Source: Phenylobacterium aquaticum
Lineage (GTDB): Bacteria > Pseudomonadota > Alphaproteobacteria > Caulobacterales > Caulobacteraceae
Assembly: GCA_947378305.1 (NCBI GenBank)
Contig: CANCJJ010000001.1
Location: 186,001-250,000 of the forward strand
Reading direction: 5' to 3'
DNA: 64,000 bases
The notes beneath the pieces were generated by a model that did not search any database, was not told the origin of the DNA, and saw only the letters and a program-made list of their open reading frames with translations. Shown here piece by piece: positions 5,565-32,017 of the stretch (the first letter of the stretch is position 1; the number at the start of each line of letters is the position of its first letter). Made by a program: the position numbers and the translations under genes.

Positions 5565-6164
5565 ATGGCCCTAAAGCTTGATCCCGGAACCCGGCTGGTG
5601 GTGGCGACCCACAATCCCGGCAAGGCGCGGGAGTTGGCGGAAATTCTGGAAGGCCGGTTCGAGCTGGTCACCGCAGGCGAGCTGGGTCTGGACGAGCCGG
5701 AGGAGACCGAGGCCAGCTTTACCGGCAATGCCCTCTTGAAGGCCCGGGCCGCCGCCCAGGCCAGCGGTCTGGTGGCCCTGGCGGATGATTCCGGCCTGTC
5801 GGTGACCGCCCTGGGGGGCGCGCCTGGAATCTATTCCGCCCGCTGGGCCGGGCCGGGCAAGGACTTCTATGTCGCCATGGACCGGGTCCGGACCGAGCTC
5901 AAGGCCCTGGGGACCGCCGACAATTCCGCCTGGTTTACCTGTGCCCTGGCCGTGGCCTGGCCCGACGGGCCGGCGGTGGTGGTGGAGGGCCGGATCGACG
6001 GCACCTTGTCCTTCCCGCCCCGGGGTGACCGCGGGTTTGGCTATGATCCCGTCTTCACCCCCCTGGGGGGCGACCAGACCTTCGGGGAAATGGAGCCGGC
6101 CATCAAGGACGCCATGAGCCACCGGGCCCGGGCCTTTGCCCAGTTAAAGGACGCCCTGCTTTGA
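5565..6164 (+). CDS. rdgB: RdgB/HAM1 family non-canonical purine NTP pyrophosphatase
   Basis: [28 protein letters not shown]...[27 protein letters not shown]1 family. Confidence 0.96.
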
Positions 6165-8235: not shown

Positions 8236-8606
8236 GCCAGGTCCGTCGCGACCGGGGGGACCGGGCGCGCCGGTCCGGCCGCCAGGCAGAAGTCTGGGCC
8301 GCCCTGTGGCTGATGGCAAAAGGCTATCGAATTCTGGGGTTTAGACTGAGGACGCCCCAGGCCGAGATCGACCTCCTGGCCACCCGGTCCGGCGCACTGG
8401 TGGTCGTCGAGGTCAAGCGGCGCCAGGACCTCAATACCGCCCTGGAAGCCGTCAGTCCCGACCAGCGCGAGCGCCTCCGCCGGGCGGGGGCAAGCCTGGC
8501 CCAGGGCCGACCGGCCTTCAGAAACGCCACGGTGCGACTCGATCTCGTGGCCCTCGCCCCCGGTCGCCTGCCTCGCCATTGTGTCGATGCCTGGCAAGGC
8601 GGGTAG
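8232..8606 (+). CDS. YraN family protein (UPF0102, nuclease-like fold)
   Basis: GRQAEVWAALWLMAKGYRILGFRLRTPQAEIDLLATRSGALVVVEVKRR; ATGA overlap with rsmI. Confidence 0.93.
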   Translation: MSQVRRDRGDRARRSGRQAEVWAALWLMAKGYRILGFRLRTPQAEIDLLATRSGALVVVEVKRRQDLNTALEAVSPDQRERLRRAGASLAQGRPAFRNATVRLDLVALAPGRLPRHCVDAWQGG

Positions 8607-8660
8607 ACTATCCGCAGGTTCAGGAAGATGGTTTAAGGCCCGGTCGAGAGGAAGCTGCCC

Positions 8661-9608
8661 ATGTCGCTCAAGGTTGCCATCCAGATGGATCCGCTGGAAA
8701 ACATCTCCATCCAGGGGGACACCAGTTTTGCCATGATGCTCGCGGCCCAGGCCCGGGGGCATTCGCTATTTGTCTACACCCCCGACCGTCTGTCCCTGGA
8801 AGAGGGCCGCGTCACCGCCCGGGGGCGCTATGTCAGCGTTCAGGACATTCAGGGCGATCACGCCCGGTTCGAGGCCTGGACCACCGTAGACCTGTCTGAA
8901 ATGGATGTGGTTCTGCTGCGCCAAGACCCGCCCTTCGACATGGCCTACATCACATCAACGCATTTCCTGGACGCCATTCATCCGGCCACCCTGGTCGTCA
9001 ACAATCCGACCGAGGTGCGCAATGCCCCGGAAAAACTGTTTGTCACAACCTTTCCGGGGGTGCAGCCCCCGACCCTGATCACCTCTGACCTGGAAGCCAT
9101 TTATGCCTTTCGGGCCAAGCATGGGGATATTGTCCTGAAGCCCCTGAACGGGGCGGGCGGATCGGGGGTGGCGCGCTTGCTGGCCGATGATCCCAATCTG
9201 GATGCCATGATGGACCTCCACCGCGCCATTGGGCGTGAGCCGGTGATTGCCCAGAAGTTCATTCCGGCGGTCTCAAAGGGCGACAAGCGGATTCTTCTGG
9301 TCGATGGCGAGCCCGTCGGGGCCATTAATCGCGTGCCAAGTGCGGGTCAGATCCGGTCGAACCTGGCCGTCGGTGGCCGGGCCGAGGCGGTTGAGCTCAG
9401 CGCCCGCGACCGCGAGCTTTGCGGCATTATTGGCCCCGAGCTGAAGCGTCGCGGCCTCATGTTTGTCGGGATTGATGTCATCGGTGACTTTCTGACCGAG
9501 ATCAATGTCACCTCCCCCACCGGGGCCCGGGCCCTGCAAAGGTTTACCGGCATTGATGCGACCCAGATCATGTGGGACCGGATCGAGGCCCTGCGCGCCG
9601 GACATTAG
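8661..9608 (+). CDS. gshB: Glutathione synthase
   Basis: [46 protein letters not shown]...[16 protein letters not shown]...[21 protein letters not shown]. Confidence 0.96.
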
Positions 9609-9621
9609 GCCGGAACAGAAT

Positions 9622-9636
9622 GTTCTATTTTTGTTC
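9622..9636 (+). promoter_or_regulatory. LexA/SOS box (alphaproteobacterial GTTC-N7-GTTC)
   Basis: GTTC-TATTTTT-GTTC, 56 bp upstream of the comM start. Confidence 0.75.
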
Positions 9637-9692
9637 TTGATTTGCACTAATGTTCATGCTGGATATTCCCGGGAATAACGGGGGACAGCCGC

Positions 9693-11219
9693 ATGGCCGC
9701 ACGCGTCGTAACCGTAGCGTTTCAGGGTGTTGAAGCCAGACCAGTCGATGTTGAGGTTCAACTCACCGGCGGCGAACAGAAGTTCATGCTGGTCGGGCTG
9801 GGCGACAAGGCCGTTGCCGAGAGCCGGGAGCGCGTAAGGGCGGCCTTTGCTGGCCTGGGACTGGCCATGCCCGGGCGACGGATCATCTGCAATCTGGCCC
9901 CGGCTGACCTTCCCAAGGAAGGCAGCCATTATGACCTGCCGATAGCCCTGGCCGTCATGGCGGCCATGGGCGTCATACCGCCAGACGCCCTGTCAGGCTG
10001 GGCGGCCATGGGGGAATTGTCCCTGGATGGCCGGATCGTCGCGGCTGCCGGGGCCCTGCCCGCCGCCGTGGCTGCAGGCAGTCTGGGGCTGGGCCTCATC
10101 TGCCCCCAGGCCAGCGGGGCCGAGGCCGCCTGGGCCGGAGAGACCCCGATCCTTGCGCCCGCCTCGCTGATCTCCCTGGTCAATCATTTCCGGGGCACCC
10201 AGATCCTGTCAGCTCCCGACCCCGGCCAGATTCTGGAGGGCGGACCGGTGCCGGACCTGCGCGACGTCAAGGGCCAGGAAAGCGCCAAGCGTGCCCTGGA
10301 AATCGCCGCAGCCGGGGGCCACAATCTCCTGTTCATAGGTCCGCCCGGGTCCGGGAAGTCCATGATGGCGGCGCGCCTGCCGGGCCTGCTTCCGCCACTT
10401 TCTCCGGCTGAGCTTCTGGAAACCTCCATGGTGCATTCCGTGGCGGGCCTGATTGCGCGTGGCGAACTGACCCGGGCCAGACCCTTCAGAACGCCGCATC
10501 ACTCCGCGACCATGGCGGCCCTGACCGGCGGCGGCGTCCGGATCAAGCCCGGGGAAGTCTCCCTGGCGCACAACGGGGTCCTGTTTCTGGATGAACTGCC
10601 GGAATTTTCCGCCCAGGCCCTGGATTCCCTGCGCCAGCCCCTGGAAACCGGCGAGGTTACCGTCGCCCGGGCCAATGCCCACATCCGCTATCCGGCCCGG
10701 TTTCAGCTGATCGCTGCCGAAAATCCCTGCAAATGCGGGCATGGCGGGGTGGGCCGGGGGGCTTGTGGCCGCGCGCCCCGGTGTCAGATCGATTATCAGG
10801 CCAAGGTGTCTGGCCCCTTCATGGATCGCATGGATCTGCAGATCGACGTGCCCGCCGTCAGCGCGGCCGACCTCAGCCTTCCGCCCCCCACCGAAGGGAC
10901 GGCCGAAGCCGCCGGGCGGGTCAGTGCAGCCCGCGCCCTCCAGGCCGAACGGGCCCGCGCCTCGGGTCGGGAGGGGGCCAGCCCCCTTAATGCCCGCGCC
11001 GACGGGGAATGGCTGGAAACCATTGCCGATCCAGAACCCGCGGCCCGTGCCCTCATGGCCCGGGCGGCAGAGGCCGGAGCGCTGACGGCCCGGGGATGGA
11101 CCCGAATTCTCAGACTGGCGCGAACCATTGCCGACCTGGACGGCGCAGGTCCCGTCGGGCGATTGCACGTCGCAGAGGCCCTGGCCTACCGGCGGGTTGG
11201 GCTCAGGGCTGAGGGCTAG
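9693..11219 (+). CDS. comM: YifB/ComM family Mg-chelatase-like AAA+ ATPase
   Basis: 508 aa; Walker A IGPPGSGKSMMAARLPGLLPPLS; FRTPHHSATMAALTGGG; CACGRAPRCQIDYQAKVSGPFMDRMDLQIDVP. Confidence 0.95.
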   Translation: MAARVVTVAFQGVEARPVDVEVQLTGGEQKFMLVGLGDKAVAESRERVRAAFAGLGLAMPGRRIICNLAPADLPKEGSHYDLPIALAVMAAMGVIPPDALSGWAAMGELSLDGRIVAAAGALPAAVAAGSLGLGLICPQASGAEAAWAGETPILAPASLISLVNHFRGTQILSAPDPGQILEGGPVPDLRDVKGQESAKRALEIAAAGGHNLLFIGPPGSGKSMMAARLPGLLPPLSPAELLETSMVHSVAGLIARGELTRARPFRTPHHSATMAALTGGGVRIKPGEVSLAHNGVLFLDELPEFSAQALDSLRQPLETGEVTVARANAHIRYPARFQLIAAENPCKCGHGGVGRGACGRAPRCQIDYQAKVSGPFMDRMDLQIDVPAVSAADLSLPPPTEGTAEAAGRVSAARALQAERARASGREGASPLNARADGEWLETIADPEPAARALMARAAEAGALTARGWTRILRLARTIADLDGAGPVGRLHVAEALAYRRVGLRAEG

Positions 11220-11344
11220 GACAGGGCGAAGGCCGGGTTGGAGAGGGCGGCCCAAACCCGGGGAAATATACCCGCTCGCTTGCCTTCCCTTCCCGAGACG
11301 GGCCGTGTAGCAACCAGATCACGCCCCCCGAAAAGTGCCCTGAC

Positions 11345-11977
11345 ATGAACGCCCTGCCCATCGATCTCGGCCGTTACCTGACCTTCATGGGGGTCATGGG
11401 AGTCATGGCCATTGCCCCCGGTCCAGCCAATGTCTTTTCCCTGGCGATCGGCGCGCAGAGGGGCCGCCGGGCCGCAATCCTGGCCATGCTCGGCATGAAC
11501 TCTGCGACCCTGGTCTGGTTTGCTCTGGCGGGACTGGGGCTGGGAGCCCTGGTTCTGGCCTTCCCCCTGGTGTTCAAATGGGTGGCCTATGCGGGTGCGG
11601 CCTATGTCGCCTGGCTGGGCGTTACGGCCATTCGGGGGGCGTTTCAGGCCCATGGCAAGATTCACCCCGGCACAGTCAAGATCGGGGCCTCAGCCTTTCG
11701 GGCCGGGTTTGCCGTGCAGATTTCAAATCCCAAGGTGGTCTTGTTCTTTACCGCAGTCCTTCCGCCGTTTCTGGACCCGCATCGCCCCCTGCCTGCCCAG
11801 CTGGTCAATTACGCCGCAGCCACCCTGCTCTTTGACGGCCTCGCCATGACAAGCTACGGCCTGGGCGGAGCCGCCCTTGCCCGGCGGCTGGAGGACCCTG
11901 GCTTTCGCCGGATTTTCCAGATCGGGGTGGGCTTGCTGCTCCTGACAGCCGCCGCCCTGATGGCGTTTCGGGAGTAA
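11345..11977 (+). CDS. LysE family translocator
   Basis: FMGVMGVMAIAPGPANVFSLAIGAQRGRRAAILAMLGMNSATLVWFALAGLGLG...FRAGFAVQISNPKVVLFFTAVLPPF. Confidence 0.92.
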   Translation: MNALPIDLGRYLTFMGVMGVMAIAPGPANVFSLAIGAQRGRRAAILAMLGMNSATLVWFALAGLGLGALVLAFPLVFKWVAYAGAAYVAWLGVTAIRGAFQAHGKIHPGTVKIGASAFRAGFAVQISNPKVVLFFTAVLPPFLDPHRPLPAQLVNYAAATLLFDGLAMTSYGLGGAALARRLEDPGFRRIFQIGVGLLLLTAAALMAFRE

Positions 11978-27588: not shown

Positions 27589-28116
27589 TCAGGCCTTCAA
27601 CGTCAGATCGGAAATTCGCGCCACAGGGCCTGCAAAATCGACAACCAGGGGATCCCGGCCCAGGGCGGCCAGAAAGGCCCACAGGCCTGCCCGGCTCACC
27701 CGCGTGGTGGCGGTATTGGTCAGGGGGTGGAAATTGACCAGGTCGGCCTCGACCAATCTCTGGTCCAGCACCAGACGGACCCGCTGGCCCGGATCATTGA
27801 CCAGGGCAAAACAGGTGACGGACCCCGGCGTGACGCCCAGGGTTTCCGCCATGAGCTCCGGGGCCCCAAAGGACAGCCGCCCCGCCCCTATGACGGCGTG
27901 CAGGCGCTTGAGATTGATCACCGTGTCATCCCGGGCACAGACCAGCCAGAGCGTGCCTCTGGCATCCTTCAGAAACAGGTTCTTGGTATGCGCGCCGGGC
28001 AGGGTCGCCTTGATCGCCTCACCCTCGCCGACCCGAAAGACGGCGGCATGGTCGCAGGTGATGTGATCCACCCCGTGGGCATCGAAAAAGGCAAACAGGT
28101 CGGCGCGGGAGAACAT
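27589..28116 (-). CDS. YbaK/prolyl-tRNA synthetase-associated domain (trans-editing, ProXp-like)
   Basis: [72 protein letters not shown]. Confidence 0.9.
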
Positions 28117-28225
28117 GGCCCAGCCTTGCCCGGTTCGGGCGGGCTCGCAAGGGGCTGAGGTTGCAGTAGACGCGAGGCCGCCCGAATGGCTAATCATGGA
28201 GCTCACGCCTTGTCTGGAGGGTCTC

Positions 28226-28969
28226 ATGGAACTCGAATGCTATCCCACCGCCGAGCGGCCTCCGGAAATCGTGCCGGGGCGGCCCCAGCGGGCCTGGATG
28301 GACCGGTTTGCCGAGCGCCACCCCTATCGCTGCCTGCCCCTGGCCATGGCCAATACGACGGGCTGGGAGCTCTTGTGCCCCATGTCCTTCACCGCCGAGT
28401 GGAACGGCGGCCTGATGCAGGAAGACATCACCCTGACAACCGACAGGCCCCATCCGGATTTTCACAACTTCGCCAAGAGCCATTTCAGCCATGGCGTGAT
28501 TACCATGCACCCCGGCTATCTGTTCAGGACCCCGCCCGGCTGGTCCATGATTGCCCAGGGACCTCCGAACCACATCAAGGACGGCATCCAGCCCCTGGCG
28601 GGCCTTGTCGAGACCGACTGGCTCCCCTTCCCCTTCACCATGAACTGGATCTTTACCCGCCCGGGTCGGGTCCGCTTTGAAAAGGGCGAGCCCTTCTGCT
28701 TCATCACCCTGACCAAGGACAAGGAACTGGCCGAATTCCAGCCGGTCATCCGCTCCATGTCCCGCAATGCAGAACTGCGGGACCAATATGACACCTGGGA
28801 AAAACACCGGGCGGAATTCAACAAGAAAATCTTCCGGCTGGACCCCGAAGCCACCAAGGCCGCCTGGCAGCGGTATTACTTCAAGGGCGAATTCCCGGAA
28901 GAAACCGGTGAGGCCCCCAAGGATCACGTGAACAAGCGCCGATTGAAGGCACCTCGATTTATGGGCTGA
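28226..28969 (+). CDS. DUF6065-like protein
   Basis: [52 protein letters not shown]...[21 protein letters not shown]. Confidence 0.75.
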
Positions 28970-29066: not shown

Positions 29067-29141
29067 GCGGGCGTAGCTCAGTGGTAGAGCACAACCTTGC
29101 CAAGGTTGGGGTCGAGAGTTCGAATCTCTTCGCCCGCTCCA
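29067..29141 (+). tRNA. tRNA-Gly(GCC)
   Basis: GCGGGCGTAGCTCAGTGGTAGAGCACAACCTTGCCAAGGTTGGGGTCGAGAGTTCGAATCTCTTCGCCCGCTCCA folds as a cloverleaf; anticodon loop TTGCCAA; CCA encoded. Confidence 0.97.
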
Positions 29142-29155
29142 AAAAATTCGATGAT
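29116..29155 (+). repeat. Direct repeat left copy (attL-like), overlapping the tRNA-Gly 3' end
   Basis: GAGTTCGAATCTCTTCGCCCGCTCCAAAAAATTCGATGAT; 39/40 identical to 30015-30054. Confidence 0.9.
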
Positions 29156-29221
29156 CCACAACATGCGGACGAGACCATGGGGCTTAGGTCCCTCACGGGC
29201 GTAAACCAATTTGGGCGGCTA

Positions 29222-29262
29222 TTCCCATGGCGGGAACTCTTGCTTGATTCCCAAATTGGGAA
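29222..29262 (+). promoter_or_regulatory. Tandem operator candidate for the TA pair
   Basis: TTCCC-ATGGC-GGGAA (29222-29236) and TTCCC-AAATT-GGGAA (29248-29262), centre spacing 26 bp, just upstream of the toxin start. Confidence 0.65.
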
Positions 29263-29278
29263 CTGGTATTAACGTCCA

Positions 29279-29581
29279 ATGAGACTGATTGCCCGCTCGA
29301 CCCTGGCAGCCTTCTGGGAGCTTCATCCCGAATCGAAAGCGTCACTGGAGCACTGGATTGCCGTCACCTCGAAGGCGCAATGGCAGACTGCGAGTGAGGT
29401 GCAGGCGTCCTTTTCGAAGGCAAGGGTGCTGAATGGCTCGCGCGTGCGCTTCGAAGTTGCGGGCGGTCATTATCGATTGATCGTCGCCTTCAAGTTTGAG
29501 GCGCAGATCGCCTTTGTAAAATTCATCGGCACGCACAAGCAGTACGATGCCATAGATGCGCTGACGGTCAGCGCCTTCTGA
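29279..29581 (+). CDS. higB: Type II toxin-antitoxin system HigB family toxin
   Basis: MRLIARSTLAAFWELHPESKASLEHWIAVTSKAQWQTASEVQASFSKARVLNGSRVRFEVAGGHYRLIVAFKFEAQIAFVKFIGTHKQYDAID; HigB_toxin-like. Confidence 0.88.
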   Translation: MRLIARSTLAAFWELHPESKASLEHWIAVTSKAQWQTASEVQASFSKARVLNGSRVRFEVAGGHYRLIVAFKFEAQIAFVKFIGTHKQYDAIDALTVSAF

Positions 29582-29592
29582 GGACCCGACCC

Positions 29593-29958
29593 ATGGATAT
29601 TTTCCCGATCAGAACCGACAATGACCATCGCGCGGCGGTGCAGGAAATCGAGCGGCTGTGGGATGCCGAGGCGGGAAGCGAAGCCTTCAACCGCCTCGAC
29701 GTTCTCGCCACCCTGGTGGACGCCTATGAAGCCAAACGCTGGCCGGTGGCCGACCTCGACCCTGTCGATACCATCAAGGCGGACATGGAGCTCAATGGCC
29801 GCTCCCTTGGCGACCTGACCAAGGTTATCGGCAAGAGCCGGGCAACCGAAATCCTCAAGCGCCGTCGTCCCTTGACCCTCGGAATGATCCGAAAACTCCA
29901 CAATGCCTGGCACATTCCAGCCGATCGCCTTGTGGCTGAGTATGAAACAACAAGTTGA
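29593..29958 (+). CDS. higA: HigA-like antitoxin with C-terminal HTH
   Basis: MDIFPIRTDNDHRAAVQEIERLWDAEAGSEAFNRLDVLATLVDAYE...GRSLGDLTKVIGKSRATEILKRRRPLTLGMIRKLHNAWHIPADRLV; immediately downstream of the toxin. Confidence 0.87.
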   Translation: MDIFPIRTDNDHRAAVQEIERLWDAEAGSEAFNRLDVLATLVDAYEAKRWPVADLDPVDTIKADMELNGRSLGDLTKVIGKSRATEILKRRRPLTLGMIRKLHNAWHIPADRLVAEYETTS

Positions 29959-30014
29959 GTGAGGCGGGGTTTCTGATTTTTGCGGCGGTAATCGCCCCAT
30001 GCAGGGTTAGGGCT

Positions 30015-30054
30015 GAGTTCGAATCTCTCCGCCCGCTCCAAAAAATTCGATGAT
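30015..30054 (+). repeat. Direct repeat right copy (attR-like), partial tRNA-Gly 3' end
   Basis: GAGTTCGAATCTCTCCGCCCGCTCCAAAAAATTCGATGAT; no intact tRNA around it. Confidence 0.9.
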
Positions 30055-30100: not shown

Positions 30101-32017
30101 CTAGGACATATCCCCCAAATCCCGCTGAACCGCCGCCAGGACGCTTGCCCAGTCGCCCGGAACGGCCTGCCGGTAAAGTCTCAGGCTGGAATACCAGGGG
30201 CTGTCGGTCCGGTCTAATTGCCAGCGCCAGTCGGGGCTGTAGGGCAGGAGCAGCCAGGTGGGTCGGCCCAGGGCTCCGCTTAAATGCGCCACGGAGGTGT
30301 CCACGCTGATGATCAGGTCCATTTGGTCACACAGGGCCGCGGTATCGGTGAAATCCGTTAGCGCCGCCCCGGGCCAGAGGATGTCCGGGCGCCGGGCCAG
30401 GGCGGGGCGATCAGCCTCCCGCAGGTCCTTTTGCAGGCAGACATAGGTGGGACCGAGCGGAAGGGCCGGGATGAGGGTGTCCAGGGCCAGGCTGCGGTTT
30501 CGGTCATTCCTGTGCAGGGTGCCGCCGCTCCAGACCAGGCCTACGCGGGGTCCGGGGCGTCCCTCTAGCCAGGCGTCCCAGGCCAGGATCTTTGCCGGGT
30601 CGGCCTTCAGATAGGGACCGGGATCAGGCAGGGTCTCCGCCCGCGCGCCCAGGGCCAGGGGCAGGCTGAGCAGGGGGCAGTGCAGGTTGATCGGCGGCAG
30701 GGGCGATCCGCGTTCGACAATCTGGTCTACACCCTCCAGGGTCTTGAACAGGTCGTACAGGGCAGGTTCAGCCTCCAGCACTACCCGCGCACCCCGGGCC
30801 TTGAGATCAACCATATAGCGGCAAAACTGCAGGCTATCGCCCAGGCCCTGTTCGGTGTGGACCAGCAGGGTCTTGCCTGCCAGATCGACCTCACCCCGCC
30901 AGAGCGGCGCGTCAAGGCCTCGCGGAATCAGACCGAGCCCCGGCACCCGCCAGCGCCACTCATAGAGGGGAAGGCCCACTTCAAAGTCTCCGGCCACCAG
31001 ACAGGCCAGCCCCTTGCCCCAGTGCGCCTCCGCCAGGTCAGGTGCCAGGCTGATGGCACGGTCAAAGCTCTCACAGGCGGCGGCAATCTGGCGGGAATCG
31101 GTGAGCAGATTTCCCCGATTAGACCAGGCCTGAGCATGGTTGGGGTTGAGGGCCAGGGCCTGGTCCAGGCTGGCCAGGGCGGCCTCGAGCCTGCCCTGGC
31201 CCCTGAGCACAACCGCCTGGTTGAGCCAGGCCTCCGGATCGTCCGGGTGCAGGCCAATCGCCCTCTCGCAGCTTTGGAGCGCTTCGTCCCACCGCCCCAG
31301 ATCCTGAAGCACCATGGCCCGGTTCGACCAGACCAGGGGTGAATTGGCCTCCAGACTAAGGGCCAGGTCATAGGCCCCAAGCGCTGCGTCGGGCTGGTTC
31401 AGGCCCTTCAGGACATTGCCGCGATTGGCATGGGCGGCGGCATTTTCGGGCTCCAGACCGATGGCGCGGTCACAGGCAATCAGAGCCCCCTCAAGATTGC
31501 CCTGGGACCGCAAGATGGCCCCTAGGTTTAACCAGGCCGGAACCATGTCCGGGGCATTCAGGAGGGCCTGTTCATAGCAGGCAAGCGCGGCCTCAGCCTC
31601 GCCCCGGACCTGAAGCAGGACGCCCAGATTGAACTGGGCATTCGCCTGGGTCGGGTCCAGGCTCAAGGCCTGCCGGAAGGCCAGGATCGCTGCGTCCGGC
31701 TGGTCCAGCGCCTGCAAGGCAAGGCCCCGGTTGGCGTGGAGCGGGCCATTGTCAGGCACCTGGACAATGGCGAGATCGTACAGGTCGAGGGCCCGGGCAG
31801 GGTCGGCGGTCTGATAGGCCAGTATGCCCGCCAACTGGAGGGCTTCGGCATGTTCGGGGGCGGCCACCAGAACCTCGGCGTAAATCGCTCCGGCTTCGGT
31901 CAGAGCGCCGGCCTGATGCAGGGCCATGGCCCGCTGCAGGAGGTCAATAAATTCGGGGGAGCGCGCAGGCGACATGGCGGGTCCCGTTTGGAGGATTAAG
32001 GCCGCTTTGGATACCAT
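30101..32017 (-). CDS. Tetratricopeptide repeat protein with C-terminal glycosyltransferase-like domain
   Basis: Repeated 34-aa TPR units (AWLNLGAILRSQGNLEGALIACDRAIGLEPENAAAHANRGNVLKGLNQPDAALGAYDLAL...) then TLLVHTEQGLGDSLQFCRYM...SVDTSVAHLSGALGRPTWLLLPYSPDWRW. Confidence 0.88.
   Translation of the reverse strand: MVSKAALILQTGPAMSPARSPEFIDLLQRAMALHQAGALTEAGAIYAEVLVAAPEHAEALQLAGILAYQTADPARALDLYDLAIVQVPDNGPLHANRGLALQALDQPDAAILAFRQALSLDPTQANAQFNLGVLLQVRGEAEAALACYEQALLNAPDMVPAWLNLGAILRSQGNLEGALIACDRAIGLEPENAAAHANRGNVLKGLNQPDAALGAYDLALSLEANSPLVWSNRAMVLQDLGRWDEALQSCERAIGLHPDDPEAWLNQAVVLRGQGRLEAALASLDQALALNPNHAQAWSNRGNLLTDSRQIAAACESFDRAISLAPDLAEAHWGKGLACLVAGDFEVGLPLYEWRWRVPGLGLIPRGLDAPLWRGEVDLAGKTLLVHTEQGLGDSLQFCRYMVDLKARGARVVLEAEPALYDLFKTLEGVDQIVERGSPLPPINLHCPLLSLPLALGARAETLPDPGPYLKADPAKILAWDAWLEGRPGPRVGLVWSGGTLHRNDRNRSLALDTLIPALPLGPTYVCLQKDLREADRPALARRPDILWPGAALTDFTDTAALCDQMDLIISVDTSVAHLSGALGRPTWLLLPYSPDWRWQLDRTDSPWYSSLRLYRQAVPGDWASVLAAVQRDLGDMS

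Follow-up and report, generated by a model that had tools for sequence, protein, structure and literature searches.

Cis-mobilizable elements (CIMEs) are defined (PMC5704250, citing Pavlovic et al. 2004) as elements that have attL and attR sites without integration or transfer genes, and the CIMEs described are larger, decayed derivatives of integrative and conjugative elements (ICEs) or integrative and mobilizable elements (IMEs). The pdif (dif) modules of Acinetobacter plasmids are small, often consist of a single toxin-antitoxin (TA) pair between recombination sites, and are thought to be moved by a recombinase encoded elsewhere (PMC6449649, PMC13141974). Promoter-bearing TA cassettes are also found in integrase-less tandem arrays of integron cassettes, the clusters of attC sites lacking integrases (CALINs; PMC11389934). 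The literature that we searched, to which most subscription papers do not belong, contained CIMEs, pdif modules and reviews of mobilizable elements, and no description of a tRNA-associated islet made up of a TA pair only. Here we analyze a window of 64,000 nt from the draft genome of Phenylobacterium aquaticum (2.34 Mb, 91% complete), in which a HigBA pair lies between att-like repeats at the 3' end of a tRNA-Gly gene. On balance, we lean towards reading the interval 29142-30040 as a CIME-like islet or a non-autonomous TA cassette targeted to a tRNA, for whose insertion a tyrosine integrase would have been provided in trans.

The proposed integration target is an intact tRNA-Gly(GCC) gene at 29067-29141 on the forward strand (ARAGORN; Rfam RF00005, 71.6 bits), the sole tRNA that ARAGORN finds in the whole window. 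Its last 26 nt, together with 14 nt of 3' flank, form the attL-like copy (29116-29155, forward strand) of a 40-nt direct repeat (D1; also by att comparison). The second, attR-like copy, a putatively displaced tRNA-Gly 3' end with its 14 nt of flank, is located at 30015-30054 on the same strand, with native spacer toward the next gene beyond it. The two copies are spaced by 899 bp and are identical at 39/40 positions. A preliminary description of this DNA had given both positions, the spacing and the single mismatch exactly, and its statement that no second intact tRNA is present at the distal repeat agrees with the ARAGORN result and with the lack of an Rfam match there. Its view of the repeat as the end of tRNA-Gly stands for the 26 nt of tRNA and is refined for the other 14 nt, which are 3' flank. 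The intact tRNA at one end and the 3' fragment at the other are a feature of tRNA-targeted elements. The repeat motif occurs only twice across the 2.34-Mb draft genome, both times in the window. The exact 26-nt 3' motif of tRNA-Gly is present in 81 of the 397 genomes sampled from this order; a pair of motifs 0.5-1.5 kb apart is found in the genome of the window alone, and the pairs in other genomes are either ~110-125 bp or >19 kb apart.

On the left of the tRNA lies a DUF6065 gene (28115-28969, forward strand; PF19541, 3.8e-103). The order of this gene and tRNA-Gly is preserved in 35/35 congeners searched, and none of the 35 has a TA pair or a HigB at this tRNA-Gly site. On the right, beyond the distal repeat, a gene on the reverse strand (30101-32017) encodes a tetratricopeptide-repeat (TPR) protein with a C-terminal match to Glyco_transf_9 (Pfam). 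By alignment, the congener contig G014:C329 has the DUF6065 gene, one tRNA-Gly only and, after a short spacer, the TPR gene with the neighbor that also follows it in the window. TA genes are absent, and judged by this gene order the contig is a syntenic empty site. The window to the right of the distal repeat copy aligns with the G014:C329 spacer (shuffle p 0.006, the shared 14 nt having been removed first), and the alignment continues into the TPR gene. The native flank is at the distal side, in keeping with the polarity of insertion into the 3' end of a tRNA. Three observations support insertion at the tRNA-Gly 3' end, as proposed in the preliminary description: the empty site, the native spacer on the right and, in congener G027, an island with an integrase at this tRNA (see below). 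The islet is a real insertion. The empty allele that the same description had suggested seeking in close relatives exists, with the same neighbors, one tRNA-Gly and no TA pair, and its proviso that all relatives might carry the pair here does not hold for the congeners. A second contig of the same congener, C262, has tRNA-Gly followed by a different flank that does not include the TPR gene and that is similar to the left flank inside the islet of the window. We take the conflicting contigs as a strain mixture in a metagenomic genome. In this contig pair (loci L078 and L080) the stretch between tRNA-Gly and a saccharopine-dehydrogenase-like gene holds the TPR gene in one contig and lacks it in the other, so that the tRNA-Gly site is variable even without TA genes.

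The content of the islet is simple. A predicted HigB-type mRNA interferase toxin of 100 aa (29279-29581, forward strand) matches PF09907 at 4.5e-25, and its profile matches E. coli HigB (5ifg_A) at 1.2e-10. It is followed by a predicted HigA-type antitoxin of 121 aa (29593-29958, forward strand), whose family profile has a match to E. coli HigA (5ifg_B) at 6.6e-8. The antitoxin has no Pfam match of its own at 0.001, and its orthologues at two loci in other genomes (L118 and L303) match HTH_3. With a HigB toxin domain and an adjacent HigA-like helix-turn-helix (HTH) antitoxin, the pair has the features of a type II HigBA system, as far as the profile matches indicate. Beyond these two genes, neither the open reading frame (ORF) list nor the Pfam search of the interval between the repeats revealed a plausible gene or an integrase, which bears out the earlier view that the islet encodes a HigB-like toxin and a HigA-like antitoxin only. 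Upstream of higB, the sequence TTCCCAAATTGGGAA (29248-29262) is an operator-like palindrome and a putative HigA operator; the same motif also precedes higB in L118 and in L101, a locus of Aquibaculum arenosum. The closest HigB proteins have 81% identity (Novosphingobium) and, within the genus, 61%. The antitoxin further matches PADLOC PD-Lambda-2_B at 6.5e-29 in its N-terminal part, a match that spans only ~120/402 profile positions, and for this reason a PD-Lambda-2 defense system is not claimed.

According to the mechanism that we propose, the interval 29142-30040 would be a small integrative element, whose sole cargo is HigBA with its own operator. A tyrosine integrase would recombine the attP site of the element, which would resemble the T-arm and 3' end of tRNA-Gly, with the chromosomal tRNA-Gly. 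The element would thereby renew the 3' end of the tRNA and the first bases of the flank, and the original end would be displaced 899 bp downstream. Since the islet carries no integrase, integration and any excision would need one supplied in trans, from a phage or an island that is targeted to this tRNA. After insertion, addiction to HigBA might favor retention.

Helpers that use the tRNA-Gly site exist, as is evident from an island in G027 and from viral contigs. The G027 island (L052, 8065-12003) is located at the same tRNA-Gly, measures 3938 bp, encodes a P4-type integrase (8269-9621) and has 50 nt of the tRNA repeated; its cargo is a 330-aa ORF without assigned function. Several viral contigs contain a 3'-half site of tRNA-Gly(GCC) without the full tRNA, most of them with an integrase-like ORF nearby. 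In the congener G005, tRNA-Gly and a 45-nt 3' copy are found on separate contigs, and in G315 two copies of the tRNA-Gly 3' motif (G315:C1:1319245 and 1338405) are 19 kb apart, probably bounding a larger island with the same target. The genome of the window has three PF00589 loci, none of them near tRNA-Gly. Two resemble the Xer pair that is common to all congeners. The third is a P4-type integrase adjoining the 3' half of tRNA-Val(CAC), and on account of this tRNA fragment its target is a different one and it was rejected as the helper. This locus (L253, G000:C20, 5375-6930) has large calcium-binding-repeat-like ORFs on either side and appears to be another island remnant.

To examine recurrence, HigB relatives were gathered from species genomes and the best 80 loci were inspected. 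A tRNA 3' end faces the TA pair in nine of these 80 loci, corresponding to six distinct tRNA sites; eight have the tRNA within ~0.2 kb and one (L118) is inside a tandem array. In none of the 80 does a tRNA 5' end face the pair. By our own estimate, which assumes ~50 tRNAs per 4 Mb and a reach of 300 bp, chance alone would give ~0.3 such loci. Two of the tRNA-facing loci have flanking repeats. In L101, a 33-nt repeat (32/33 identical) of tRNA-Val(GAC) bounds a 1124-bp interval that holds HigBA only. In L118, from a Proteobacteria metagenome-assembled genome (MAG), tRNA-Met(CAT) is followed by copies of its 3' half at 5884, 6819 and 11256 and by a degenerate one beyond. In the first L118 interval (846 bp), a PF05015 HigB is paired with an HTH antitoxin. 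The second, of 935 bp, carries HigBA of the PF09907 type, and the third, of 4437 bp, encodes Fic together with two pairs, TacA/GNAT and PIN/ribbon-helix-helix (RHH). The ends of L118 cassettes 1 and 2 are 81% identical across 108 nt, and a 92% copy of the interior of cassette 1 is present in another arrangement in G455. L118 (4962-11256) and L252 (G060:C71:33000-48000) display a tRNA-Met(CAT) tandem array, with HigBA of two types, Fic, TacA/GNAT and PIN/RHH located between four additional copies of the 3' half of the tRNA. At L094 (5701-7914), HigBA is flanked on one side by the 3' end of ddl and on the other by a duplicate of this end that has diverged; from its layout, this is a protein-gene version of the same arrangement, with integration at the end of a coding gene. 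At other loci (tRNA-Phe in G032 and L128, tRNA-Val in L117, tRNA-Lys in L139, and the tRNA-Met loci of Novosphingobium) a TA pair is located at the tRNA 3' end, and these are counted as association only because the distal repeat is missing. The 'tRNA-Arg' at L104 looks like a false call. On viral contigs, none of 60 HigBA loci was found beside a tRNA.

Examples were also collected without regard to TA content, by inspecting the same tRNAs in relatives. In G432 a tRNA-Val is followed by a 935-bp interval with MazF/MazE only and then by a second interval of 2204 bp, and in G471 a tRNA-Met is followed by a 683-bp interval with BrnT/BrnA only. In most other relatives the stretch examined contained no second copy of the tRNA 3' end. 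One inspected locus (L303 in G454, 8938-11846) has an insertion sequence (IS)-type transposase ORF and its truncated copy beside an integrase-like ORF 155 nt from tRNA-Met. All six repeat-bounded intervals of <1.2 kb that were seen hold exactly one TA pair, three having been found via HigB and three without TA selection (G432, G471 and L118 cassette 1). They involve three tRNA species and four TA toxin families. Those at other tRNAs span 683-1124 bp (HigBA and MazEF at tRNA-Val; BrnTA and two HigBA-type pairs at tRNA-Met), and the distance from the antitoxin stop to the distal repeat is 56-225 nt in the window, L118 and L101.

These intervals bear on the choice, already posed in the preliminary description, between a cassette mobilized in trans and a TA-stabilized remnant. 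In the latter case a larger, integrase-bearing island at tRNA-Gly would have decayed to its att ends and the addictive HigBA, as in a classical CIME. Retention of TA pairs by addiction is established for islands, and larger islands at the same tRNA are seen in the genus (3.9 kb with an integrase in G027, the split contigs in G005 and the distant motifs in G315). Formation of CIMEs by decay and tandem accretion is described (PMC5704250). However, decay should yield varied contents and sizes, whereas all the short intervals hold one TA pair with little spare DNA at several tRNA species, and the L118 cassettes share a common end sequence in spite of their different TA pairs. A decayed island is thus the less probable origin, although one with a substantial share of the probability. 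Acquisition as a TA-only cassette appears to be favored because of the compact size, the repeated one-pair content and the recurrence at other tRNAs, and sequence alone does not settle the choice.

Tandem tRNA-Gly genes exist in relatives, and for this reason a dead second tRNA was considered as the source of the distal copy. An ancestral second tRNA-Gly would have lost its 5' half, and the TA pair would have come between the two genes by another route. Tandem tRNA-Gly pairs ~110-150 bp apart are present in sister genera and in congener G029, where the spacing is 153 bp (L045). Upstream of 30015, however, resemblance to the tRNA 5' part falls to background and is not significant (local p 0.22, anchored p ~0.08-0.10), Rfam does not recognize a tRNA at the distal copy, and the empty-site contig G014:C329 has one tRNA-Gly. 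A degenerate tandem tRNA, which the preliminary description had named as the finding that would count against a TA insertion, is therefore improbable. Least probable of all is illegitimate insertion or segmental duplication without an integrase and with a chance repeat, since, although no recombinase lies within the interval, the repeat coincides with the tRNA from T-arm to 3' end, as in L101, G432 and the integrase-bearing G027, and the relatives of this TA pair are biased to tRNA 3' ends.

Several points weigh against a tRNA-targeted cassette moved in trans. Most HigBA relatives are not located at tRNAs, and the sample collected without TA selection is small. Two of the checks that had been suggested turned out negative: no second HigBA bounded by tRNA-Gly repeats was found in the 397 same-order genomes, and no integrase matching tRNA-Gly is among the three PF00589 loci of the 91%-complete draft genome. 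Several of the comparison genomes are MAGs, and G014 has two conflicting contigs at this very site.

More broadly, we tentatively suggest that Alphaproteobacteria harbor dispersed single-TA cassettes of 0.7-1.1 kb, which would use tRNA 3' ends (at L094, that of ddl) as att sites, accumulate in tandem in the manner of integron cassettes, swap TA content at a given tRNA, and depend for all movement on integrases that resident phages and islands supply in trans; we hold this somewhat less probable than not. To our knowledge, the travel of solitary chromosomal TA pairs is largely unexplained. If the cassette interpretation is true, tRNA-targeted cassettes with borrowed integrases would be a concrete, testable transfer route for such pairs, would explain the position of some TA pairs at tRNA 3' ends, and would offer tyrosine integrases natural substrates of very small size. 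The L118/G060 array, with several TA pairs between copies of one tRNA end, would then be the TA counterpart of an integron array. It is the recurrence of such islets that opens this transfer route to testing.

Of the described systems, CIMEs share with the islet att-like repeats at both ends, the lack of an integrase and a recurrently used integration site, and tandem accretion is seen in L118/G060. Judged from its sequence features, the islet has two of the traits that define a CIME, namely att sites that are kept and integration and transfer genes that are missing. It differs in that the whole islet is one TA pair of ~0.9 kb, for which no ICE or IME ancestor or intermediate was seen. Like pdif modules, the islet is small, bounded by recombination-like sites and putatively dependent on a foreign recombinase; it does not belong among them, since by inspection it is bounded by tRNA 3' ends rather than XerC/XerD sites, and its location is chromosomal. 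With the islands and phages that are targeted to tRNAs by P4-type tyrosine integrases, among which is the G027 island at the same tRNA, it has in common the target, the restored tRNA 3' end and the direct repeats, whereas it has no integrase and no cargo beyond the TA pair. The L118 tandem array resembles integron cassettes and CALINs by analogy, but the site is a tRNA 3' end. Finally, the pair itself resembles E. coli HigBA (HigB PF09907; 5ifg) in its toxin-first operon and in its homologous toxin and antitoxin, and differs in being located between att-like repeats.
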